From: Deltaproteobacteria bacterium
Lineage (GTDB): Bacteria; Myxococcota_A; UBA796
Length of the DNA: 13,097 bases
Reading direction: 5' to 3'
NCBI GenBank assembly: GCA_002707085.1
Contig: PALY01000080.1
Coordinates: forward strand, 3,368-16,464
Every line of letters begins with the position of its first letter. The first letter of the stretch is position 1. Positions 21 to 8,359 of the stretch are shown one piece after another. The notes beneath the pieces are model-generated. The model was not told where the DNA came from, searched no databases, and saw only the letters and a program-made list of their open reading frames with translations. The translations under genes and the position numbers were made by a program.

Positions 21-1151
21 ATGGCCAACTACCTTCTCGATCCTTCTGTCTGCTTTCTCAACCATGGAAGCTTCGGTTCGACTCCTTCGCAGGTACTCGC
101 CTTGCAAGACCAGTTTAGAAAGGAAATGGAGGCAGAACCCATTGATTTCCTGCTTCGCAATCATCCAAAACGATGGGCGGATTGCCGCAACAAGGTAGCA
201 GAATTCTTAAATGCTGAACCTGATGGCACGGTGTTTGTACACAATGCAACGGACGGCGTGAATGCGGTCATCCAATCCTTTCCTTGGAAGGAAGGCGATC
301 AAATTCTCACAACCAACCATCGATACGATGCGGTCCGAAACACCTTTGAACATATGGTTGGACGATATGGTGTAGAGGTTGTGGAAGCATCCGTCCCATT
401 CCCCATCAACGGCCATCAACAGATTATCGATTCTATAGAAGCAGCCATTACCCCAAAAACCCGCCTGATTGCGGTCGACCACATCACATCGCCAACAGCG
501 CTGATTTATCCAGCGGAAGAACTGGTCAAGTTGGCCCATGCAAAGGGAATCCCCATCCTGATTGATGCAGCCCACACCCCTGGGCAAATCGACGTCGATA
601 TTCAGACGCTAGGGGCCGACTTTTGGGTGGGCAACCTCCACAAATGGATCTGCGCCCCCAAAGGCGTGGCTGTTTTATCCGTTGCAGAACAATGGAGAGA
701 AGCCATCCACCCAACCGTGATTTCACATGGGTACGGCCAAGGGTTGACCGAAGAGTTTACATGGTGTGGCACGGACGACCCCACTGCAATTTATTGCGCA
801 CCAAAAGCCATAGAAATCCATCAATCACAAGGCGGATCATCGTTCCGATCAGCCCACCATCAACTCGTTCAAACAGGACGGGAAGTCATTGCACATGCGC
901 TCCAGGTAGAACTTCCTCACCCAGACTCACAGTCTCTATATGGCTCCATGGCATCGATTCCCCTGCCCTGCTCTGTAGAGCAGGCGCCAGACCTCTTCGC
1001 CGCTCTGCGTACAGAGGACAAAATCGAGGTACCAATCATCATCTGGGACAATAGAGTATGGGTGCGAATCTCAGGTTTTGCCGGGTACAATCGACCCGAA
1101 CAATATCATCAGCTTGCAGCCGCACTCCAAAAACGCCTCATCGGCGAATGA
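21..1151 (+). CDS. Aminotransferase class V, isopenicillin-N epimerase-like PLP enzyme
   Basis: This 376-residue protein is a fold-type I PLP enzyme of the class V group, closest in style to isopenicillin-N epimerase-like proteins. The N-terminus has the family opening FLNHGSFGS (residues 12-20). An aspartate expected to contact the pyridine nitrogen is in ILIDAAHTPGQ (D182), and the Schiff-base lysine is K208 in GNLHKW. The length is normal and the C-terminal small domain is complete. The ATG at 21 follows AGAAGGGG at a suitable distance. Relatives act as epimerases, cysteine desulfurase-like lyases or aminotransferases, so the substrate cannot be told from sequence and no beta-lactam genes are nearby. 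Its last 14 nt overlap the end of the convergent methyltransferase gene. The family call is firm; the reaction is open. Confidence 0.9.
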   Translation: MANYLLDPSVCFLNHGSFGSTPSQVLALQDQFRKEMEAEPIDFLLRNHPKRWADCRNKVAEFLNAEPDGTVFVHNATDGVNAVIQSFPWKEGDQILTTNHRYDAVRNTFEHMVGRYGVEVVEASVPFPINGHQQIIDSIEAAITPKTRLIAVDHITSPTALIYPAEELVKLAHAKGIPILIDAAHTPGQIDVDIQTLGADFWVGNLHKWICAPKGVAVLSVAEQWREAIHPTVISHGYGQGLTEEFTWCGTDDPTAIYCAPKAIEIHQSQGGSSFRSAHHQLVQTGREVIAHALQVELPHPDSQSLYGSMASIPLPCSVEQAPDLFAALRTEDKIEVPIIIWDNRVWVRISGFAGYNRPEQYHQLAAALQKRLIGE

Positions 1152-1797
1152 GTTGAATCACAGGCTCCTTTACCCAAGGCAACCCCCAGCGATTGTCTGC
1201 GCCAAGATCGATCTCATCCAACAAGACGACTTCATGGGTATCTTGAAAAAGAGACTGTACGTCAGCGAAACCCACTGGATACGGAGCGCCCGTTCGCACA
1301 CCACGTGGGTAATCAAAAGTCAGCATGAATCCTATGCTGCGTGAGCCAAGCACAACGGAAAGCCAATCCACATAGCGCCTCTGAATTTCAGGAGGCAATG
1401 CGACGATGGCCGCCCGGTCATACCAAGCACCCACTGTAGACACCATCTGTGGTGGAAGCGTAAACAGGTCACCGCAAAAGATCCGTATGCCTTCAGCTTC
1501 ACCGGTTCCGACATACAGTTCATGGGATCCTGTGGACTCCACAACATATGGAAAGCCTTGTTCCTCAAAAAACGCCGTACAAGCGATTTTGGTTAGCTCT
1601 ACACCCAATACCGCATGACCTCGCTGGTGAAGCCAAGTCATGTCTCGACTCTTGCCACACAGCGGAACCAGCACAGAAACGGATGGTTCTGGAATCAATC
1701 GGGGCCAAAAGCGGATCAGTAGCTCATTCGCCTCGTCTTGATGAAAACCGATTCTCCCCTCTTGCCAGCGGCTCAACCATTGGTCGACATCATCCAT
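1138..1797 (-). CDS. tpm: Thiopurine S-methyltransferase (TPMT)-like methyltransferase
   Basis: This 219-residue class I SAM-dependent methyltransferase belongs to the TPMT family. Evidence is the N-terminal pattern WLSRWQEGRIGFHQDEAN (residues 7-24) and the SAM-binding stretch VLVPLCGKSRDMTWL followed by GHAVLGVEL. Also typical are GDLF and a WYDRAAIVALPP motif in the middle. Bacterial members methylate thiols and selenium or tellurium compounds; the natural substrate here is unknown. I chose the ATG at 1797 because it overlaps the stop of the upstream receiver gene as TGATG, which suggests translational coupling. A TTG one codon earlier is an alternative. It is the last gene of the six-gene signalling operon, so it may be an output or a passenger. 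Its 3' end overlaps the opposing PLP-enzyme gene. Confidence 0.88.
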   Translation of the reverse strand: MDDVDQWLSRWQEGRIGFHQDEANELLIRFWPRLIPEPSVSVLVPLCGKSRDMTWLHQRGHAVLGVELTKIACTAFFEEQGFPYVVESTGSHELYVGTGEAEGIRIFCGDLFTLPPQMVSTVGAWYDRAAIVALPPEIQRRYVDWLSVVLGSRSIGFMLTFDYPRGVRTGAPYPVGFADVQSLFQDTHEVVLLDEIDLGADNRWGLPWVKEPVIQLIRR

Positions 1798-2246
1798 CAA
1801 TCCAGCATCTCCAAAATTGCTGACCGAATATCAGCGGGTCCAGCCATATCGTTCACGTATGAAATTGGCGCAAGTCGGGTCGTGAGGTGTGCAAACCGCT
1901 GCGGTTCGCCATCAAAGTCGTAACTAAACAAAAGGGGGTGTGGGTACCCCGCCTCTCGAATTGCATTGGCGATGTAGGTTCCCTGGTGGTTTTCCAAATA
2001 TCTTTTGGCACGACCCGCATCTCCATGAAACCGTTTCTCCAGAGCAGCCTGATCACCAATCAAGCGCTCCGCACGATCAAATCGCATATCCAGAAAAATC
2101 AAATCCCAATTCGCGGCAGCAAGGGCGTCCATACAAGATGGGCCATCGCCGACACGAACCAATTCAAAATCATCTCCCAAGAATCGCGAAAATGTCTCGA
2201 TGTATTCGTGGCCATCTTCTACTACCAACACACGTGCAAGGGCCAT
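1797..2246 (-). CDS. Stand-alone receiver-domain protein with enlarged beta3-alpha3 loop
   Basis: This 149-residue protein is a single CheY-like receiver with no output domain. VLVVEDG (residues 6-12) gives the acidic pocket, and D53 in DLIFLDMRFD is the likely phosphorylation site. S108 in LLFSYD stands at the switch Thr/Ser position. About 35 residues lie between D53 and the QG at the start of helix 3, much longer than in CheY. No lysine is present at the usual K position near PISYVND. The activator encoded at 4920-6542 shares both features. The ATG at 2246 is preceded by GGAGGAG and lies one base after the kinase stop. An upstream in-frame extension exists but would run deep into the kinase gene. 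It probably receives phosphate from that kinase (inference). Confidence 0.82.
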   Translation of the reverse strand: MALARVLVVEDGHEYIETFSRFLGDDFELVRVGDGPSCMDALAAANWDLIFLDMRFDRAERLIGDQAALEKRFHGDAGRAKRYLENHQGTYIANAIREAGYPHPLLFSYDFDGEPQRFAHLTTRLAPISYVNDMAGPADIRSAILEMLD

Positions 2247-2247
2247 T

Positions 2248-4923
2248 TCACTCCTCCGCCAACACAGCAACGGGTGTATCGGATGACTCCACTCGCTGCA
2301 GGGATACCACAATCGCTTTTGACCAGCCCGGTTCTGACTCGACATGAATCGTACCCTCATGCCGCGTGACCAGGTCAACAGTAAGGCCCAAGCCTCGACC
2401 GATGCTGCGGCCATGCAGCATGGCATCGGTCAACACCCCCTCCGCCGTATCTTGGAAACGCAGTTCAACTGTCGCCAAGCCGGTGATCAGATCGGCCTGT
2501 TCTATGACCGACAAACCAATCCGGCGTTCTGCATCCGGACTGTTCATCGCAATCGCCTGATACGCATTGCGAAGCAGGTTGGCGACAATGTCGTCTAAGT
2601 CACCTTGAAACACCCGTACGGGAATCGGCTCACTGGCCACCTGCACAGAAAGCAAAGGCAAGTCAAGATGCGTAAATGCAGGTTCCTCACGAACTCTCTC
2701 TTCGACTTCAAGAAGGGCTTCAGAAGAGAGATGAACTGTACCCAGCTGCTGCATAAATCGTCCGAGCGCATGATAGGCATCGTCATTGAGGGCTTTGCCG
2801 ACTTCTACCAACTGTTCGGCAACCTCAAATCGAGATGCAGAACGTTTGGGTGGACGGTGAAGTTTGTTTTCCAAACGCCGCAGCTTACGCATGGCACCCG
2901 ACATGGGGGCAAACAAGGGATCCTTATTGCGCAGGTCCAACAACACCCCATGACGACGCCCCAAGGAGCGCAACTGGCGCACGTATCCGTCAAAGCGAGC
3001 CACGACGCCCTGGGCGCCCTCGTCACCATACAGCCGGCGCACTCCGTAAGACACCGCATCGACATCACCGCACTTGAGCGCCTCCGCGAGTTCCTCCAAA
3101 AGCGTCGTGTTGTGCTTCAGCAATTCGTGCCGAACAGCGGACACAACCATGGCCACATCATGTGCAGACCCAGGGGCCTGCTCCAACAAAGTGGAGAGAG
3201 GCTGAGCTCGGAGGCGACGAACCCAGAACAGTAAAATGCTCAAAAAGACAAAGGAGCCACCACCCCAAAGCAACATTTTCTGCCGCTGCAGCGCGTCCAC
3301 GACCTGATCTTGCAAAGCCAACGCGGGCGCATGGCGACTTCCCCCAGTGGACAACTCAAAGAACCGGACCAAAATCCGTTCTGCATCGTCGAAATCTCCC
3401 GAGTCAAAAGCCATATCAGCCAGCAGGTATAAAGCATCCGCAACACCACGCTGGGCTGCACCTTGCAATGCTGCTTCAGCCTCAGCCAAACGCCCTTTTT
3501 GCCGATGCAATTCTCCAATGGCAAGCCAAACCTGTGCTTGGTTGGGGTTCACTTTCAACGACCGGTTCCAAGACGCTAACGCCGACTGCCCATCCCCTTT
3601 CGCCAACGAGATCGCCGCCGATAGGTTGATGGCTGCAGTCCAATCAGGAGCGACATCCAGAACCGTCGCAATGGCTGTTTGTGCGGCATTTAGGTCATCA
3701 CGACTCCGATAAGCGCGCGCAAGGCGATACTGCTGAACCGCCTCTTCAGGCACCTCTGCAGGCGTGTCATCGATAGCAGCCGTCTCAATCGCTGGTGGTG
3801 CCAGCCTTGAAAGGTCAGCCACCCGTTTACGTGCTGTGGACGACCAACTGCCATTGGGGTCCATTTTCAGGTAATCCTGATACGCGGTAAGTGCTGAGTC
3901 GTAGTCACGAAGAGAGCGTTCGACTTCAGCCAACGCATAAACGACTGCGGCCCACGATGGTCGAAGCGCCCGAGCGGTGCGCAGTGAATCCCTTGCCTCT
4001 CGATCCCTCTTGCCTCCGTACCGCGTGATCAACAGCTGCCCAAATCGTTCATGCCACACAGCTTCTGCCGGGTCGATAGCCAAAGCCCATCGATAGGACT
4101 GTTCTGCATCGGCGACCTGCCCCAACTGTAAATGAACTTCACCAAGCGTTCCCCAAGCCTCTGCTGATCTTGGCGCATCACGAATAAGCAAGCGCAGTTG
4201 TGTCAACGCGCGTTCCGTGTCTCCCTGTGCCGCAGACAACCTCGCTTCGTTCAACACAGTCCGCTGCCCATCAGAAAGCGGTTCTGGCTCGGACACGATA
4301 AAGTCCTGGGCTGAACGTTCGATAAGCAAACGGTCCAGTCTTGCTTGTACTTCTGGCATCCAATCGGCTTGGGGCCAATCATTCAATAAACGAACCATCA
4401 ATGCTTCGGCACGTTCATCCTGATCATCACGACGCAAAGCGCCCAAAACATCAAGGATTGTGGGTCCTTTCGGATCCCGATCAACCAGGTCCAGATAGTT
4501 TTCGACCGCAGTTGCTGCAGCCATCGAATCTGTATCGGTGAGGGCGCGCGCCTCTCCCAAATAGGGCCACTCATCCCCCAACAACAAGGTCTGTAATAAT
4601 CGATATAGATCAGCCGCTGCTTGAGGATCGCTGTTTTCCAGAAGTACAGCACGCGCCTCAATCGCCTCGGGAGAGGCGTGCAAACGCTCGTAGGCTGCCA
4701 GCGCCCCCGGAACGTCACCTTGGGCCTGAAGTGAACGGCCCAATCCCATCACTGCGCGGTCGTAGTAAGGGGCGACGGCCAAAACCATGCCGTACTGTGC
4801 GGCCGCGGTCGTAAAGTCACCCGCTTTCTCCGCAGTGACTGCCTGTGAAAATCGTTCATTCACAAGTGGCGACAGTTCTGAGCCTTGAGCGGCCGTCAGC
4901 CAGAAAAACCACAGCAGTATCAC
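2248..4923 (-). CDS. TPR-containing membrane sensor histidine kinase
   Basis: This 891-residue protein starts with a hydrophobic signal or anchor (MILLWFFWLTAAQG). About 500 residues of tetratricopeptide-like repeats follow; clear repeats lie near 252-287, 320-355 and 462-495. A transmembrane helix at about 550-568 is followed by basic VRRLR, so the TPR part is predicted outside the inner membrane and the kinase inside. H599 in VRHELLKHN is the candidate phospho-histidine. The ATPase has an N box (DDIVANLLRNAYQAI, N786) and a G2 box (GRGLGL, 842-847). The G1 box is degenerate (D825-TAEG rather than DxGxG). The H-to-N distance is about 187 residues against roughly 105 in EnvZ-type kinases, so extra helices are present. 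There is no HAMP, PAS or fused receiver. The start is GTG, overlapping the activator stop as GTGA, which implies coupling. The TPRs may bind a protein or peptide partner (inference). Confidence 0.88.
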   Translation of the reverse strand: MILLWFFWLTAAQGSELSPLVNERFSQAVTAEKAGDFTTAAAQYGMVLAVAPYYDRAVMGLGRSLQAQGDVPGALAAYERLHASPEAIEARAVLLENSDPQAAADLYRLLQTLLLGDEWPYLGEARALTDTDSMAAATAVENYLDLVDRDPKGPTILDVLGALRRDDQDERAEALMVRLLNDWPQADWMPEVQARLDRLLIERSAQDFIVSEPEPLSDGQRTVLNEARLSAAQGDTERALTQLRLLIRDAPRSAEAWGTLGEVHLQLGQVADAEQSYRWALAIDPAEAVWHERFGQLLITRYGGKRDREARDSLRTARALRPSWAAVVYALAEVERSLRDYDSALTAYQDYLKMDPNGSWSSTARKRVADLSRLAPPAIETAAIDDTPAEVPEEAVQQYRLARAYRSRDDLNAAQTAIATVLDVAPDWTAAINLSAAISLAKGDGQSALASWNRSLKVNPNQAQVWLAIGELHRQKGRLAEAEAALQGAAQRGVADALYLLADMAFDSGDFDDAERILVRFFELSTGGSRHAPALALQDQVVDALQRQKMLLWGGGSFVFLSILLFWVRRLRAQPLSTLLEQAPGSAHDVAMVVSAVRHELLKHNTTLLEELAEALKCGDVDAVSYGVRRLYGDEGAQGVVARFDGYVRQLRSLGRRHGVLLDLRNKDPLFAPMSGAMRKLRRLENKLHRPPKRSASRFEVAEQLVEVGKALNDDAYHALGRFMQQLGTVHLSSEALLEVEERVREEPAFTHLDLPLLSVQVASEPIPVRVFQGDLDDIVANLLRNAYQAIAMNSPDAERRIGLSVIEQADLITGLATVELRFQDTAEGVLTDAMLHGRSIGRGLGLTVDLVTRHEGTIHVESEPGWSKAIVVSLQRVESSDTPVAVLAEE
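2251..2257 (-). promoter_or_regulatory. Strong ribosome binding site fixing the receiver start
   Basis: On the minus strand GGAGGAG lies 4 nt before the ATG at 2246, inside the last codons of the kinase gene. It decides for the 149-residue form of the receiver over a longer in-frame reading that begins inside the kinase gene. Confidence 0.75.
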
Positions 4924-6542
4924 GACATGCGTTCCTTCAAATCACGAACCTTGAGTCCAAGTTGGTTGAATCGCAGTTGGACCTTTCGAGAGGCGTCTGC
5001 ATCACCCAGCAGAATACTTGCCATGGCCGCAAAATCACCCTGATGACGTAGATATAGGGTCGTAAAATACTGGCGCTCGATATCTTGTGCCACTTTGTTG
5101 AGGCCACTTTGTGAACGCAACTGTATTCCGATTTGTAGCCCTTCCGACGCAGAGTCCTGATCGATCCGAACAGCCATAAGCTGATCTCGAATCACCTTGG
5201 GGCGAACCTGTATGACATCGGGTCGGCCATCATCACCCCGCCGCTTGTAGCCACCGGCAGCAATCGCTTCCGCAATGGATAGGGTCAATGCATTTTCGAT
5301 CGCCATGGCAAACTCTCGCAGATTGCCAGGCCAACGGTGAGCGGACAACTGTTCCATCGACGGTGCAGGAAACAGTAGCAACACGGTGCCTTCATCCATC
5401 TCGGGCACCTCGCTACCCGTCACCACTTCGACATTGTTGCCTCCAACTCCGGCCACGTTCCGGTATTCGTCCAACAGCCCGTCTAAGTGTCCAGCACTCA
5501 GGATCCGTTCCAACGTAAATGAAAGAAGTTTCGCCAAGTCCAAGGAGCGTTCCTGCAAAGAAGGCAGCATTACAGCAGAAGCAGGATTCAAGCGCATATA
5601 CAGGTCAGACCGAAACCGGCCTTGGCTCACCAAATCCGCCAAATCTTCATTGGTGGCCACCACAAGCTTTACATCCACCACGCGTTCACTGGTATCTCCC
5701 AGGCGAGTGACAACCCCTTCTTGCAACACAGTAAGCAACATCTTTTGGACTTCGATACTGAGATTCCCAATCTCATCCAAAAAGAGGGTGCCTCCATTCG
5801 CCTGCTCAAATGCACCGGCCCGGTCTGCGACCGAGCCTGTATAGGCCCCACGCAGTGACCCAAACAAATGTGCTGCAACCAAATCCTTCGGCAGGGTCGC
5901 CAGATCTGCAGAAACGAATTTGCCACGCCTTCCACTCTTTGGGTGAATAAAGTGGCGAGCAATAAGCGATTTTCCAGTTCCTGTAGGCCCCGTCAAGGTC
6001 ACCGGCAGCCTCCCACGAGCAAGTGTCGAAAGGCGTTGTCTCACCTGCCGCATCATGATGGAACGCCCCCAATAGACCGGACCATCCCGAGATGTACCCC
6101 TCTGGGCGCGCAAGATCCCTTCCACCTGACCACGAAGAGAATGAGCATCTACATCCTCATGATCCAGAAAGTAGGTGTATTCCTGGGCGCCATGCCGGTC
6201 AGCGGCCTGTTCCATCCCTACGCCACCTCGACTGGTCATCAATACGACAGGTAGGTCTGGCGCCCCACGCCGAAGCTCCTCTAAAATAAAAATACCTTGT
6301 CGACGTTTGGCCTTCCTGACTGCACGTTCATCATCGACATCTGTCACACCAAGAAGATCATTTGCTGGAATATCAAAGTGAATGTCCAACAAGACCAAAC
6401 CGAGCTGTTTGCCCATAGAGCGAACCTGACTCTTCGCCTCTTCCCACGAACGAGCGGGGCCGACCCATTCATGCTCCGGCATTACACGACGACACAGTTC
6501 AATGGTCCTGTCTTGGTCATCAATCACGAGAATATTCGCCAT
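4920..6542 (-). CDS. Receiver/AAA+/HTH sigma-54-type transcriptional activator, atypical receiver
   Basis: This 540-residue NtrC-like bacterial enhancer-binding protein has a receiver (about 1-145; VIDDQD, phospho-acceptor D53, switch T103). The AAA+ domain (about 155-420) has Walker A GPTGTGKS (185-192), the sigma-54 contact loop GAYTGS (232-237; consensus GAFTGA) and Walker B GGTLFLDE (250-257). It also has the arginine-finger stretch RSDLYMRLN (311-319) and WPGNLREF. The C-terminus (about 480-540) looks like a Fis-type HTH. Oddities are a roughly 29-residue segment between D53 and helix 3 rich in Asp/Arg/Lys, no receiver switch lysine (YTYFLDH in that area), and proline for the usual glutamate in Walker A. 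The loop threonine is kept, so sigma-54 activation is plausible, but the loop variants weaken certainty. The ATG follows GAGGAG and lies 2 nt after the upstream stop. Confidence 0.9.
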   Translation of the reverse strand: MANILVIDDQDRTIELCRRVMPEHEWVGPARSWEEAKSQVRSMGKQLGLVLLDIHFDIPANDLLGVTDVDDERAVRKAKRRQGIFILEELRRGAPDLPVVLMTSRGGVGMEQAADRHGAQEYTYFLDHEDVDAHSLRGQVEGILRAQRGTSRDGPVYWGRSIMMRQVRQRLSTLARGRLPVTLTGPTGTGKSLIARHFIHPKSGRRGKFVSADLATLPKDLVAAHLFGSLRGAYTGSVADRAGAFEQANGGTLFLDEIGNLSIEVQKMLLTVLQEGVVTRLGDTSERVVDVKLVVATNEDLADLVSQGRFRSDLYMRLNPASAVMLPSLQERSLDLAKLLSFTLERILSAGHLDGLLDEYRNVAGVGGNNVEVVTGSEVPEMDEGTVLLLFPAPSMEQLSAHRWPGNLREFAMAIENALTLSIAEAIAAGGYKRRGDDGRPDVIQVRPKVIRDQLMAVRIDQDSASEGLQIGIQLRSQSGLNKVAQDIERQYFTTLYLRHQGDFAAMASILLGDADASRKVQLRFNQLGLKVRDLKERMS

Positions 6543-6544
6543 TC

Positions 6545-6964
6545 TTACCGCTCCTCTTCCTCTTTCCGAACCCTTCCCAACAGCGCCTTCAACAACGTAC
6601 GAACCTCGTACGTTTGAGTTCGCACTTTGTTCAACATTGGACTCATTTCTTTTAGGTCCACTCCTTGAAGCTCCGACATCAAGCTGTCGATTTGAACAAC
6701 CTCGTCCGCATCACCGAGAGCACTGGGGCGGAGGCGTTCCCAAACAGACCACGCCGCCTCTGTGACCACCACACCGTTCGCATCGGTATGCTTACGGGTT
6801 TCGTACAAGTCGGTCCTCAACGCAGACATCAAAACTGCATCGGACGCCCCTTCCGCCACCATACGGGTCTCAAACACAATGTATTTGCCCAAATCGTGAA
6901 CCAGATCTTCTAGGTCTTCAACCAACATGGACAGCTGAGAATCATCCAGGTGTTCAAAACTCAT
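6545..6964 (-). CDS. Small acidic helical protein of unknown function in the signalling operon
   Basis: This 139-residue protein has no family I recognise. It is predicted almost wholly alpha-helical, with no signal peptide, no membrane segment and no cysteine. It has an acidic N-terminal helix (residues 4-25), a central tryptophan-containing segment (AAWSVWERL) and a charged C-terminus ending in KEEEER. H23 in LVHDLGKY lies in the first helix, and a phosphotransfer role is conceivable but unproven. The HDLGK string resembles HD-domain metal motifs, but nothing else of that fold is visible. The ATG at 6964 overlaps the upstream stop as TAATG and follows AGGAAA, so I chose it over a longer in-frame start. 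The next gene, the activator, begins 2 nt after its stop. Its position suggests a partner of the activator or kinase. Confidence 0.72.
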   Translation of the reverse strand: MSFEHLDDSQLSMLVEDLEDLVHDLGKYIVFETRMVAEGASDAVLMSALRTDLYETRKHTDANGVVVTEAAWSVWERLRPSALGDADEVVQIDSLMSELQGVDLKEMSPMLNKVRTQTYEVRTLLKALLGRVRKEEEER

Positions 6965-7326
6965 TATTTCCTGTTCTTTTTGAAAGGCCACCGCCTGTGG
7001 GGCGTCAATGTGGGCTTGGTTGCTGGGACCCGAAAGGGTTCCACCTCCATCATCCACGTGCGCCCCTCTCCTTTCGCGCCCACAGCGGTAATCGTTACCC
7101 TCAAGTTCTCCTGATTGTGTGTCCAGCCCTCTACCGAGACTGCCTGCTCAACTTCGGTTGGCCCAACCCCCTCTGTCTCTCCCCCAGCGACAGAAATCTC
7201 AGCTGATTTCCAAACCACATCCGGAACCACACGAACGACATAATGACCATCCGCAGACAAAGTTGCCGAAATTTCCGGAGAGGCAAAGGCCATCGATACG
7301 AGCAAAAAAAGAATCATCACACACAC
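6964..7326 (-). CDS. Small exported protein of unknown function, first gene of the signalling operon
   Basis: This is about 120 residues with a short, convincing signal peptide (MILFLLVSMAFA, cleavage predicted at AFA/SPE). The mature part has alternating hydrophobic residues typical of a small beta-sandwich, and the tail is basic and proline-rich (HRRWPFKKNRK). I recognise no family. There is no cysteine after the signal, so it is not a lipoprotein. The start is uncertain: GTG at 7326, GTG at 7320 and ATG at 7317 are in frame, none has a strong ribosome binding site, and the ATG gives the most natural signal peptide. Its stop overlaps the next start as TAATG. A periplasmic location would place it beside the TPR part of the kinase, so it might be a ligand, cofactor or reporter of that sensor (inference). 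Confidence 0.68.
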   Translation of the reverse strand: MCVMILFLLVSMAFASPEISATLSADGHYVVRVVPDVVWKSAEISVAGGETEGVGPTEVEQAVSVEGWTHNQENLRVTITAVGAKGEGRTWMMEVEPFRVPATKPTLTPHRRWPFKKNRK

Positions 7327-7330
7327 TCAT

Positions 7331-7347
7331 CGCAGGAACCGTGCCAA
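7331..7347 (-). promoter_or_regulatory. Possible sigma-54 (-24/-12) promoter of the signalling operon
   Basis: The minus strand reads TTGGCACGGTTCCTGCG. The -24 element is a full TTGGCACG, and the GG and GC dinucleotides are 10 nt apart as sigma-54 requires, but the -12 element is CTGC rather than TTGC. The location upstream of an operon that encodes a sigma-54 activator fits autoregulation. Against it, transcription would begin near 7320, leaving almost no leader before the ATG at 7317. A one-mismatch match of similar quality also lies inside the coding sequence at 224-239, so chance is possible. A sigma-70-like -10 (TAGAAT, 7373-7378) without a good -35 is an alternative. Confidence 0.35.
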
Positions 7348-7396
7348 CCAAAACACGTCAATACGGCCCAGTATTCTATTGATTGTAGCATTTAAT

Positions 7397-8359
7397 CTAC
7401 TCAGCTCGGCCACGTTTATTCCAGGCCCCAGTCTTCAAGAGGCTGATGTAATCGACTGTGACATCGGTAGGCTTGGATACTTCGACCCCAAAACCACCCA
7501 ACGAGCGAACAGCTGAGACACAAGCTTCAATGACCTCTGGCGGCCCATGCAGCCCCATCAGGGTTTCCGGCTGAACCCATCCACGCCGGAGAAGGTCTTG
7601 AGCCAACGCACCCATCACCCAAGGTTCCGTTCCTTCCTCCCAGAACACAGGGGCCATCACCTTTTGAACTTGTTCAACGTTCAAATGACCCATTTCCAGC
7701 AAGACCAACGCAGCCTGCCACCACGAGTAGACCGGCACAACACGGTTTCCAAGCGCAGACAATCGCTGAGTGGGCACCCCCCGCTCCAGACGAATGAAAA
7801 TACGCTCAACGGCATCATGGCGCTTCACCTTTGCAAGCGCTTCCAACCCACGGTCTATCTCGTCTGGATACGCACCAGCCTTTTCCATGACGCGGCTGAC
7901 CTCTGCGGCACCAACACGGCCCTCTACAGCATCGGCGTATAGCGAATAGACCAAAGCGTCGGCTTCAACGTCATCACCAAACAACACCTCGACGGCGGCG
8001 TCATCGGTCCGAACACGAGCCTCTAGAAGTGCTGGCAATTTGTAGCCAATTTGTCCGCGTATTGCGCGAATACGCCCCTTTTTCAGGTTCCCAAAACTGT
8101 CTTTGAGTACGAGTTCATCAAACTCAACCCCATCCAATGCGAGCTTTTCCGAAATCACTTTGCGCATCTGTGTGGGAGAACCTGAAATGACGGTAATCTT
8201 GGAGTCGGGACTTCCACAAAGCGAGCGCAACAGCGTGGCAGCGCCTGGAAGAGCGCGCTTTCGGTGAGCGGGCTCCGTTGCACTGCGAACCAAACCTCGA
8301 AAAGATTCGAAGTCGGTATCCAAATAAGTCTTATCCAAATCCCAGCGATAGACTTTCAC
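7397..8359 (-). CDS. HAD-superfamily protein with App1/DUF2183-like motifs and a helical C-terminal domain
   Basis: This 320-residue protein opens with the HAD motif I (WDLDKT: D7, D9, T11). Motif II follows (VISGSP, S59), then the conserved lysine (K107 in IGYKLP) and motif III/IV (LFGDDVEADALVY: D129, D130, D134). The SGSP, lysine and GDD..AD pattern resembles App1-type phosphatidate phosphatases (DUF2183), so a phosphatase is likely, with a lipid or other phosphate as substrate. Residues about 175-320 form a separate helical region with possible HEAT-like repeats that App1 proteins do not usually carry. The start is GTG at 8359 with only a weak GGGG upstream, but motif I begins six codons later, so little room exists for another start. 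It lies 67 nt after the FtsB-like gene and 70 nt before the signalling operon. Confidence 0.75.
   Translation of the reverse strand: MKVYRWDLDKTYLDTDFESFRGLVRSATEPAHRKRALPGAATLLRSLCGSPDSKITVISGSPTQMRKVISEKLALDGVEFDELVLKDSFGNLKKGRIRAIRGQIGYKLPALLEARVRTDDAAVEVLFGDDVEADALVYSLYADAVEGRVGAAEVSRVMEKAGAYPDEIDRGLEALAKVKRHDAVERIFIRLERGVPTQRLSALGNRVVPVYSWWQAALVLLEMGHLNVEQVQKVMAPVFWEEGTEPWVMGALAQDLLRRGWVQPETLMGLHGPPEVIEACVSAVRSLGGFGVEVSKPTDVTVDYISLLKTGAWNKRGRAE

Follow-up and report, generated by a model that had tools for sequence, protein, structure and literature searches.

The window, a stretch of 13,097 nucleotides from Deltaproteobacteria bacterium (assembly GCA_002707085.1, contig PALY01000080.1, positions 3,368 to 16,464 of the forward strand), carries on its minus strand six closely joined genes, designated here A to F, four of which (B, C, D and E) are proposed, with a probability of about 0.7, to form a complete four-step phosphorelay in which every domain that takes up phosphate belongs to a separate protein and the transfer order is D-E-B-C. 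The set would represent a Spo0-like relay layout with a sigma-54-type output in Myxococcota, and the sequences show its gene content, the co-retention of its genes, four invariant acceptors, predicted folds and, at the operon, a promoter of the sigma-54 type. An earlier reading of the letters of the window (the sequence-only reading) had described the six genes as a coupled signalling operon with a shared task and without a recognised equivalent; this was borne out, with the unit reduced to the four genes B-C-D-E, since A and F were found to lie outside the conserved part. The host genome of the window comprises 3.87 Mb in 165 contigs and is 72% complete.

Acceptor residues and proposed order of transfer

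A His-Asp-His-Asp set of acceptors was invariant across the four proteins, namely the kinase His of D (63 of 63 aligned loci), Asp53 of E (73/73, together with Glu10 and Asp11), His23 of B (48/48, each time followed by Asp24) and Asp53 of C (50/50, together with Asp8, Asp9 and Thr103). D consists of a signal-peptide-like start, periplasmic TPRs, a transmembrane segment at about 554-573, a His-bearing helical domain and a catalytic domain; the TPRs and, weakly, HATPase_c were matched in Pfam, and D thereby combines the acceptor His with the ATP-binding catalytic domain expected of a relay kinase. E gave a weak match to PF00072, and C matched PF00158 (Sigma54_activat; E 5.3e-53) together with a weak receiver match. 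The domain calls made earlier (activator, TPR kinase, lone receiver and, for F, TPMT) therefore hold in Pfam.

In the proposed scheme, D would sense its input through the periplasmic TPRs, its catalytic domain would autophosphorylate His599, and the phosphoryl group would be passed to Asp53 of the lone receiver E, from there to His23 of B and finally to Asp53 of C. Phosphorylated C would activate sigma-54-dependent genes, in some lineages its own operon. We infer each of these transfers, its direction, the dependence of C on sigma-54 and the autoregulation. The earlier proposal of a single relay that unites kinase, receiver and activator and takes its input through periplasmic TPRs is probably right, and in place of the branched path that it suggested a linear D-E-B-C path is more likely, with B as the candidate carrier bearing the invariant His-Asp.

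Residue 108 of E, the switch position, was Ser in 48, Ala in 12, Val in 8, Cys in 3 and Ile in 2 of 73 loci and never Thr, whereas C keeps its Thr throughout; because an intermediate needs the Asp and not the switch, C is likely the end point. The usual receiver Lys is absent from both E and C, so that C may be activated in an atypical way, and its receiver carries an insertion after Asp53. The GAFTGA-like loop of C reads [AS]-[YWF]-[TS]-[GD]-[SA] in the rows seen, mostly as GAYTGS, GSYTGS or AFSGA, with Thr (40) or Ser (10) at position 4 in all 50 loci and Gly at position 5 in 49 of 50. The C-terminal segment of C is strongly conserved in the order (ERQYF...RKVQLRFNQLGLKVR), and no helix-turn-helix family of Pfam was matched in C. 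A plasmid search with C returned 2,364 records, all of less than 60% identity, which are ordinary activators.

Co-retention of the four genes

The queries for a set of 141 related genomes were E, B, the D kinase core and the C receiver, and strong matches were counted. The search with E gave 66 genomes at E 0.001 or better, from which 9 with weak generic receiver matches only were left out. Strong matches were thus counted in 57 genomes for E, 56 for B, 58 for D and 57 for C. Of the 141 genomes, 60 contain one or more of the four genes and 81 contain none; the full set is present in 52, and the 8 in which it is incomplete are all metagenome-assembled genomes (MAGs) of 72 to 92% completeness.

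By contig, the 52 genomes with the full set were distributed as follows: all four genes on a single contig (30), BC|DE (12), BC|D|E (4), BCD|E (3), B|CDE (2) and B|C|DE (1). Several of the split patterns, but not all, are probably contig breaks. In genome G037, B-C, D and E are located on three contigs and inside contigs of 78 to 170 kb, and in G044, a distance of 57 kb separates B-C from D on one contig, and E is on a different contig. B lies at most 500 bp from C in 52 of the 56 genomes having both, and E at most 500 bp from D in 48 of 56, a pairing that is the arrangement favoured by a relay running from D to E and then from B to C. The sequence-only reading had named homologues that are not neighbours as evidence that would count against it. 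Such cases do occur, in that genomes of families f2 and f12 have some of the genes unlinked, but most of them keep all four. The four genes are co-retained even where unlinked, linkage is unnecessary for co-retention, and retention of all four in the unlinked state speaks for a shared task, not against it.

Distribution across Myxococcota

For the phylum, an even sample of 377 genomes was used, 314 of them outside the order. Of the 377 genomes, 100 had E and 91 had B. Outside the order, both were present in 40 genomes, E only in 9, B only in 1 and neither in 264 (Fisher 1e-40), and in 32 of the 40 genomes with both, B and E are on one contig within 6.5 kb. Eighteen out-of-order loci from 9 families were fetched, four of which belong to the 9 'E only' genomes; B, C and E were present in 18/18, D in 17 and all four in 17/18, and in those four genomes B does lie next to E but matches more weakly, at 21 to 30 bits. 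At the remaining locus (L155, family f18; G239:C188 1-3228), which has E, B and C, no D was detected in six frames over the 2.8 kb that precede E on its contig.

Three gene orders were observed, namely B-C-D-E, D-E-B-C (in f18 and f42) and B-C-E-D (in f45); the four genes stay together across many myxobacterial families, and the genes around them vary. In the six f18/f42 loci with D (L153 and L154, Sandaracinus; L158-L160; L166, f18, where D is divergent), the kinase has only 494 to 545 amino acids and a small N-terminal part in place of the long TPR array; in these families the sensor is swapped and the relay core is constant. The cultivated myxobacterium Sandaracinus amylolyticus (G212) has all four relay genes in a row, and the E protein of an f42 genome likewise carries that species name.

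These distributions bear on a branched two-component system, in which D would phosphorylate C directly, E would be a sink or side branch, and B a structural or regulatory partner. Lone receivers can be sinks, C and D are within 3.5 kb of each other in 34 of 55 genomes, and B has no known HPt signature, all of which agree with such a system. A scaffold B, however, fails to explain the invariant His-Asp on a polar face, and the branched system leaves unexplained both the co-occurrence of B and E outside the order and the direct adjacency of E and B in the f18/f42 loci; we consider it unlikely.

Protein B as a candidate phosphotransferase

B had been described from the letters as a small helical protein matching no family; both points stand, and to them is added an invariant, polar-face His-Asp pair that makes B a candidate histidine phosphotransferase. 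Among the first 30 sequences the invariant columns were His23, Asp24 and Thr56, of which the His-Asp pair persisted with the larger set of aligned loci and Thr56 dropped to 42/48. The AlphaFold2 model of B (pLDDT, predicted local distance difference test, 96.4; pTM, predicted template modelling score, 0.89) is a helical bundle with five helices of at least 8 residues, helical except for a small hairpin and devoid of a C-terminal kinase-like alpha/beta domain. By a helical-wheel estimate, as distinct from the model coordinates, His23 in helix 8-26 is turned +163 degrees away from the hydrophobic side and so lies on the polar face, and the kinase His of D is in the same helical register (+168 degrees).

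In 30 members of B no Pfam family was matched at cut-off, chance matches only (up to E 5) being obtained, and PF01627 (HPt) and the Pfam families of Spo0B/ChpT were absent from these matches, to which the HMMER filters apply. Pfam, NCBIfam and PHROGs gave no name for B, PADLOC matches were at chance level, and comparison of the B profile with PDB sequences gave coiled-coil and helical noise. A search with the B model by VIA-align returned generic helical bundles, with the maize HPt protein ZmHP2 at rank 41 and without Spo0B or ChpT among the 50 matches listed; the fold search does not prove that B is a phosphotransferase. Because of the invariant His followed by an acid, its polar face, the small bundle and an operon shared with two receivers and a kinase, B is probably, as judged from its sequence, a histidine phosphotransferase and the missing link of the relay. 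It would work like Spo0B, ChpT or HPt proteins, although by the Pfam test B falls outside those families.

It is improbable that B is instead an inhibitor, phosphatase or decoy of the CheZ or Sda type that docks on the receivers or the kinase, with the His-Asp pair as a catalytic or docking surface. The HDLGK motif of B does resemble the RHE..K motif of D by eye, with weak profile support for kinship, and the residue at His+4 (Lys 44, Arg 4; n = 48) is unlike the familiar HPt or DHp pattern, but familiar decoys and phosphatases are not known to need an invariant His, and B-C is the tightest gene pair of the set.

Possible kinship of B and the kinase

A further, doubtful possibility is that B and the His-bearing domain of D form one new phosphoacceptor class, a multi-helix bundle, B being a duplicated kinase acceptor domain without the catalytic domain, and that the relay arose independently of Spo0 and CckA-ChpT and drives a sigma-54 programme. 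B and D share the motif RH[DE]..K, and D has 187 residues from the His to the N-box Asn. Ordinary kinases have about 120. In a separate search with D, most rows covered residues 164-315, which correspond to the catalytic domain. Alignment of the two profiles with hhalign gave a score of 21.4 (22.2 in another run) at a probability of about 6% and P 0.006, a score unreached by 150 column shuffles (mean 11.6) and 36 reversed profiles (maximum 14.5); against B, the end of C and two stretches of TPRs reached scores of 9.6 to 13.7. On the other side, receiver E, for which there is no reason for kinship, scored 26.7 against B over 20 columns, and rotated D profiles, in which the local match is kept, reached 21.4 in 24 of 35 cases. 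Given the last two results, the score does not establish kinship, and the relay reading itself becomes very slightly less likely.

Comparison with known systems

B, predicted as a small helical bundle with an exposed His, resembles HPt proteins (PF01627) and differs from them in the missing Pfam match and in its motif, HD[LV]GK, as against HxxKG in HPt. C resembles NtrC-type sigma-54 activators in joining a receiver to a PF00158 AAA+ domain with Thr or Ser at loop position 4, and differs in the loop variant, the insertion in its receiver, the missing Lys and the missing Pfam helix-turn-helix.

Like Spo0 of Bacillus (KinA/B-Spo0F-Spo0B-Spo0A), the proposed relay has four acceptors on four proteins, namely a kinase, a lone receiver, a helical His carrier and a receiver-transcription factor, and the separate-protein layout of Spo0 is referred to as architecture M1 in the available part of PMC8199921. 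Unlike in Spo0, B has neither a sequence match to Spo0B nor a C-terminal alpha/beta domain (background on Spo0B in the available part of PMC12826061), the relay ends in an AAA+ activator of the sigma-54 type, its genes form one cluster in many hosts, and the input of the relay kinase is TPR-based in most lineages seen. CckA-ChpT-CtrA of Caulobacter likewise has a stand-alone His phosphotransferase feeding a transcription factor. According to the available part of PMC3433190, ChpT forms a dimer and has, besides a helical domain bearing His33, a C-terminal domain like that of kinases, and the kinase CckA is of the hybrid type; B is by comparison helical with a small hairpin only, and E is a separate protein.

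In the available part of PMC8199921, 5,219 surveyed phosphorelay operons are divided into M3 (72%), M2' (18%) and M4 (6%), which leaves only a few percent for M1 and M2, so that relays of four separate proteins appear to be rare. No description of the system was found by a literature search on titles and the start of abstracts, with subscription papers and preprints outside its range, or in the available part of a survey of myxobacterial two-component systems (PMC4603909). If the relay reading is true, B would represent a new phosphotransfer protein family invisible to Pfam, and the relay would be phylum-wide in bacteria with complex life cycles; it is testable because the cultivated S. amylolyticus has the full set.

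Operon layout and neighbouring genes

The features of the window are listed in Table 1.

Table 1. Genes and regulatory elements at the relay operon (positions in the window)
Feature	Position	Strand	Description
A	6964..7326	-	Neighbour, restricted to f1 and f5 loci; small protein whose start resembles a signal peptide
B	6545..6964	-	139-amino-acid helical protein, predicted stand-alone histidine phosphotransferase; His23 codon 6898-6896, motif HD[LV]GK
C	4920..6542	-	540 amino acids: receiver, Sigma54_activat AAA+, conserved C-terminal segment; predicted terminal response regulator; Asp53 codon 6386-6384
D	2248..4923	-	891-amino-acid sensor histidine kinase; His599 codon 3129-3127
E	1797..2246	-	149-amino-acid lone receiver, predicted intermediate relay protein; Asp53 codon 2090-2088
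F	1138..1797	-	TPMT-family methyltransferase; overlaps E by TGATG; neighbour in the genus of the window
H	7397..8359	-	HAD-like, 320 amino acids; neighbour outside the relay
Sigma-54-type -24/-12 promoter TTGGCACGGTTCCTGC	7332..7347	-	Upstream of A; GG 7345-7344, 10 nucleotides, GC 7333-7332
Candidate activator site CTACAATCAATAG	7376..7388	-	Imperfect CTAC-N5-GTAG; lead only

All five junctions claimed for the six minus-strand genes were confirmed by the sequence and the list of open reading frames (ORFs). The stop of A and the start of B share TAATG, with the ATG of B at 6964-6962; between B and C there is a gap of 2 nucleotides (6544-6543); the stop of C overlaps the GTG start of D in GTGA (4923-4920); a single nucleotide (2247) lies between D and E; and the stop of E overlaps the ATG of F at 1797 in TGATG. 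The start of E is ATG 2246, which differs from the ORF list, and that of F is ATG 1797 and not TTG 1800 as in the list, while A may start at ATG 7317 instead of GTG 7326. In relatives, the gap was between -25 and +60 nucleotides in 27 of 29 locus pairs for B-C, 19 of 31 for C-D and 26 of 45 for D-E, with an exact 4-nucleotide overlap in 2, 11 and 16 pairs, respectively; these counts rest on automatically assigned starts and are too low, because some starts were placed too far upstream. The window has 8 MAG loci as relatives, which carry the labels Myxococcota, Deltaproteobacteria or uncultured proteobacterium.

As had been stated from the letters, two of the six proteins have no recognised family, A and B falling below every Pfam cut-off; for A, NCBIfam and PHROGs gave none either. 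F matched PF05724 (TPMT) with E 6.1e-53 and 180 bits against a cut-off of 26, and narrowly missed the NCBIfam equivalog (208.4 versus 213). A was present in 6 of 55 loci, and F adjoined E in 2 of 55, these being the window and one genome of the same genus; TPMT genes occur in 55 of the 63 genomes of the order, mostly away from E. In G001, a genome of the same genus as the window (80% complete), exbB-exbD-divIC-H-A-F are located on an unbroken contig of 5,582 bases (locus L144, G001:C256 76-3382), where B-C-D-E are missing as an exact block and A and F are retained. A six-gene pathway including A and F, for which the translational overlaps at both ends speak, is therefore hardly tenable and was rejected, given the rare linkage of A and F, the TPMT genes mostly elsewhere, and the survival of both in G001 after loss of the relay; A and F are riders on B-C-D-E.

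H was also rejected as a fifth partner, because it is present in 106 of the 141 genomes, including all 9 genomes of the order with none of B, C, D and E, which also means that these genomes are not simply empty of the region. The APP1_cat match of H is slightly below cut-off, and H is near the relay in both orientations.

Promoter region and candidate activator site

The promoter TTGGCACGGTTCCTGC scored 15.6, above the 99% null of 14.9, under weights set by hand from the sigma-54 consensus, and the pattern TTGGCACGNNNNYTGC has 7 sites in the genome versus 1 for the control pattern. Across lineages the promoter support is mixed, 5 of 29 upstream regions passing the 95% null. The gene rpoN was found in 59 of 63 genomes of the order, which fits a dependence of C on sigma-54. 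Among the relay-less genomes of the order, G010, G026 and G043 have an RpoN DNA-binding domain matched near the full model at only 138 to 154 bits, other full-length RpoN matches having about 197 bits or more; relay-less G022 and G032 are normal.

Upstream of A, TAGATTAAATGCTACAATnnnTAGA and a sigma-54-like site are common to the window and the same-genus locus L047, and both are absent in G001. The loss of both elements together with the relay in this one genome suggests autoregulation by C. The block TAGATTAAATGCTACAAT at 7376-7399, which overlaps the stop codon of H and contains the CTAC-N5-GTAG-like element, is conserved in two genomes of the genus.

Exact CTAC-N5-GTAG occurs twice in 498 kb, both times upstream of the relay operon in other genomes, the motif having been chosen post hoc after those occurrences were seen; with one mismatch allowed it is unspecific (9 in upstream regions versus 102 in all loci), and no common dyad was prominent upstream of the relay operons. 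Of the 7 sigma-54-type sites in the genome only that of the operon itself has a CTAC-N5-GTAG match (one mismatch), and no regulon is therefore claimed. Downstream of the sigma-54-type sites L134-L140, a LysM-like protein was noted by eye at one and a short-chain dehydrogenase-like protein at another.

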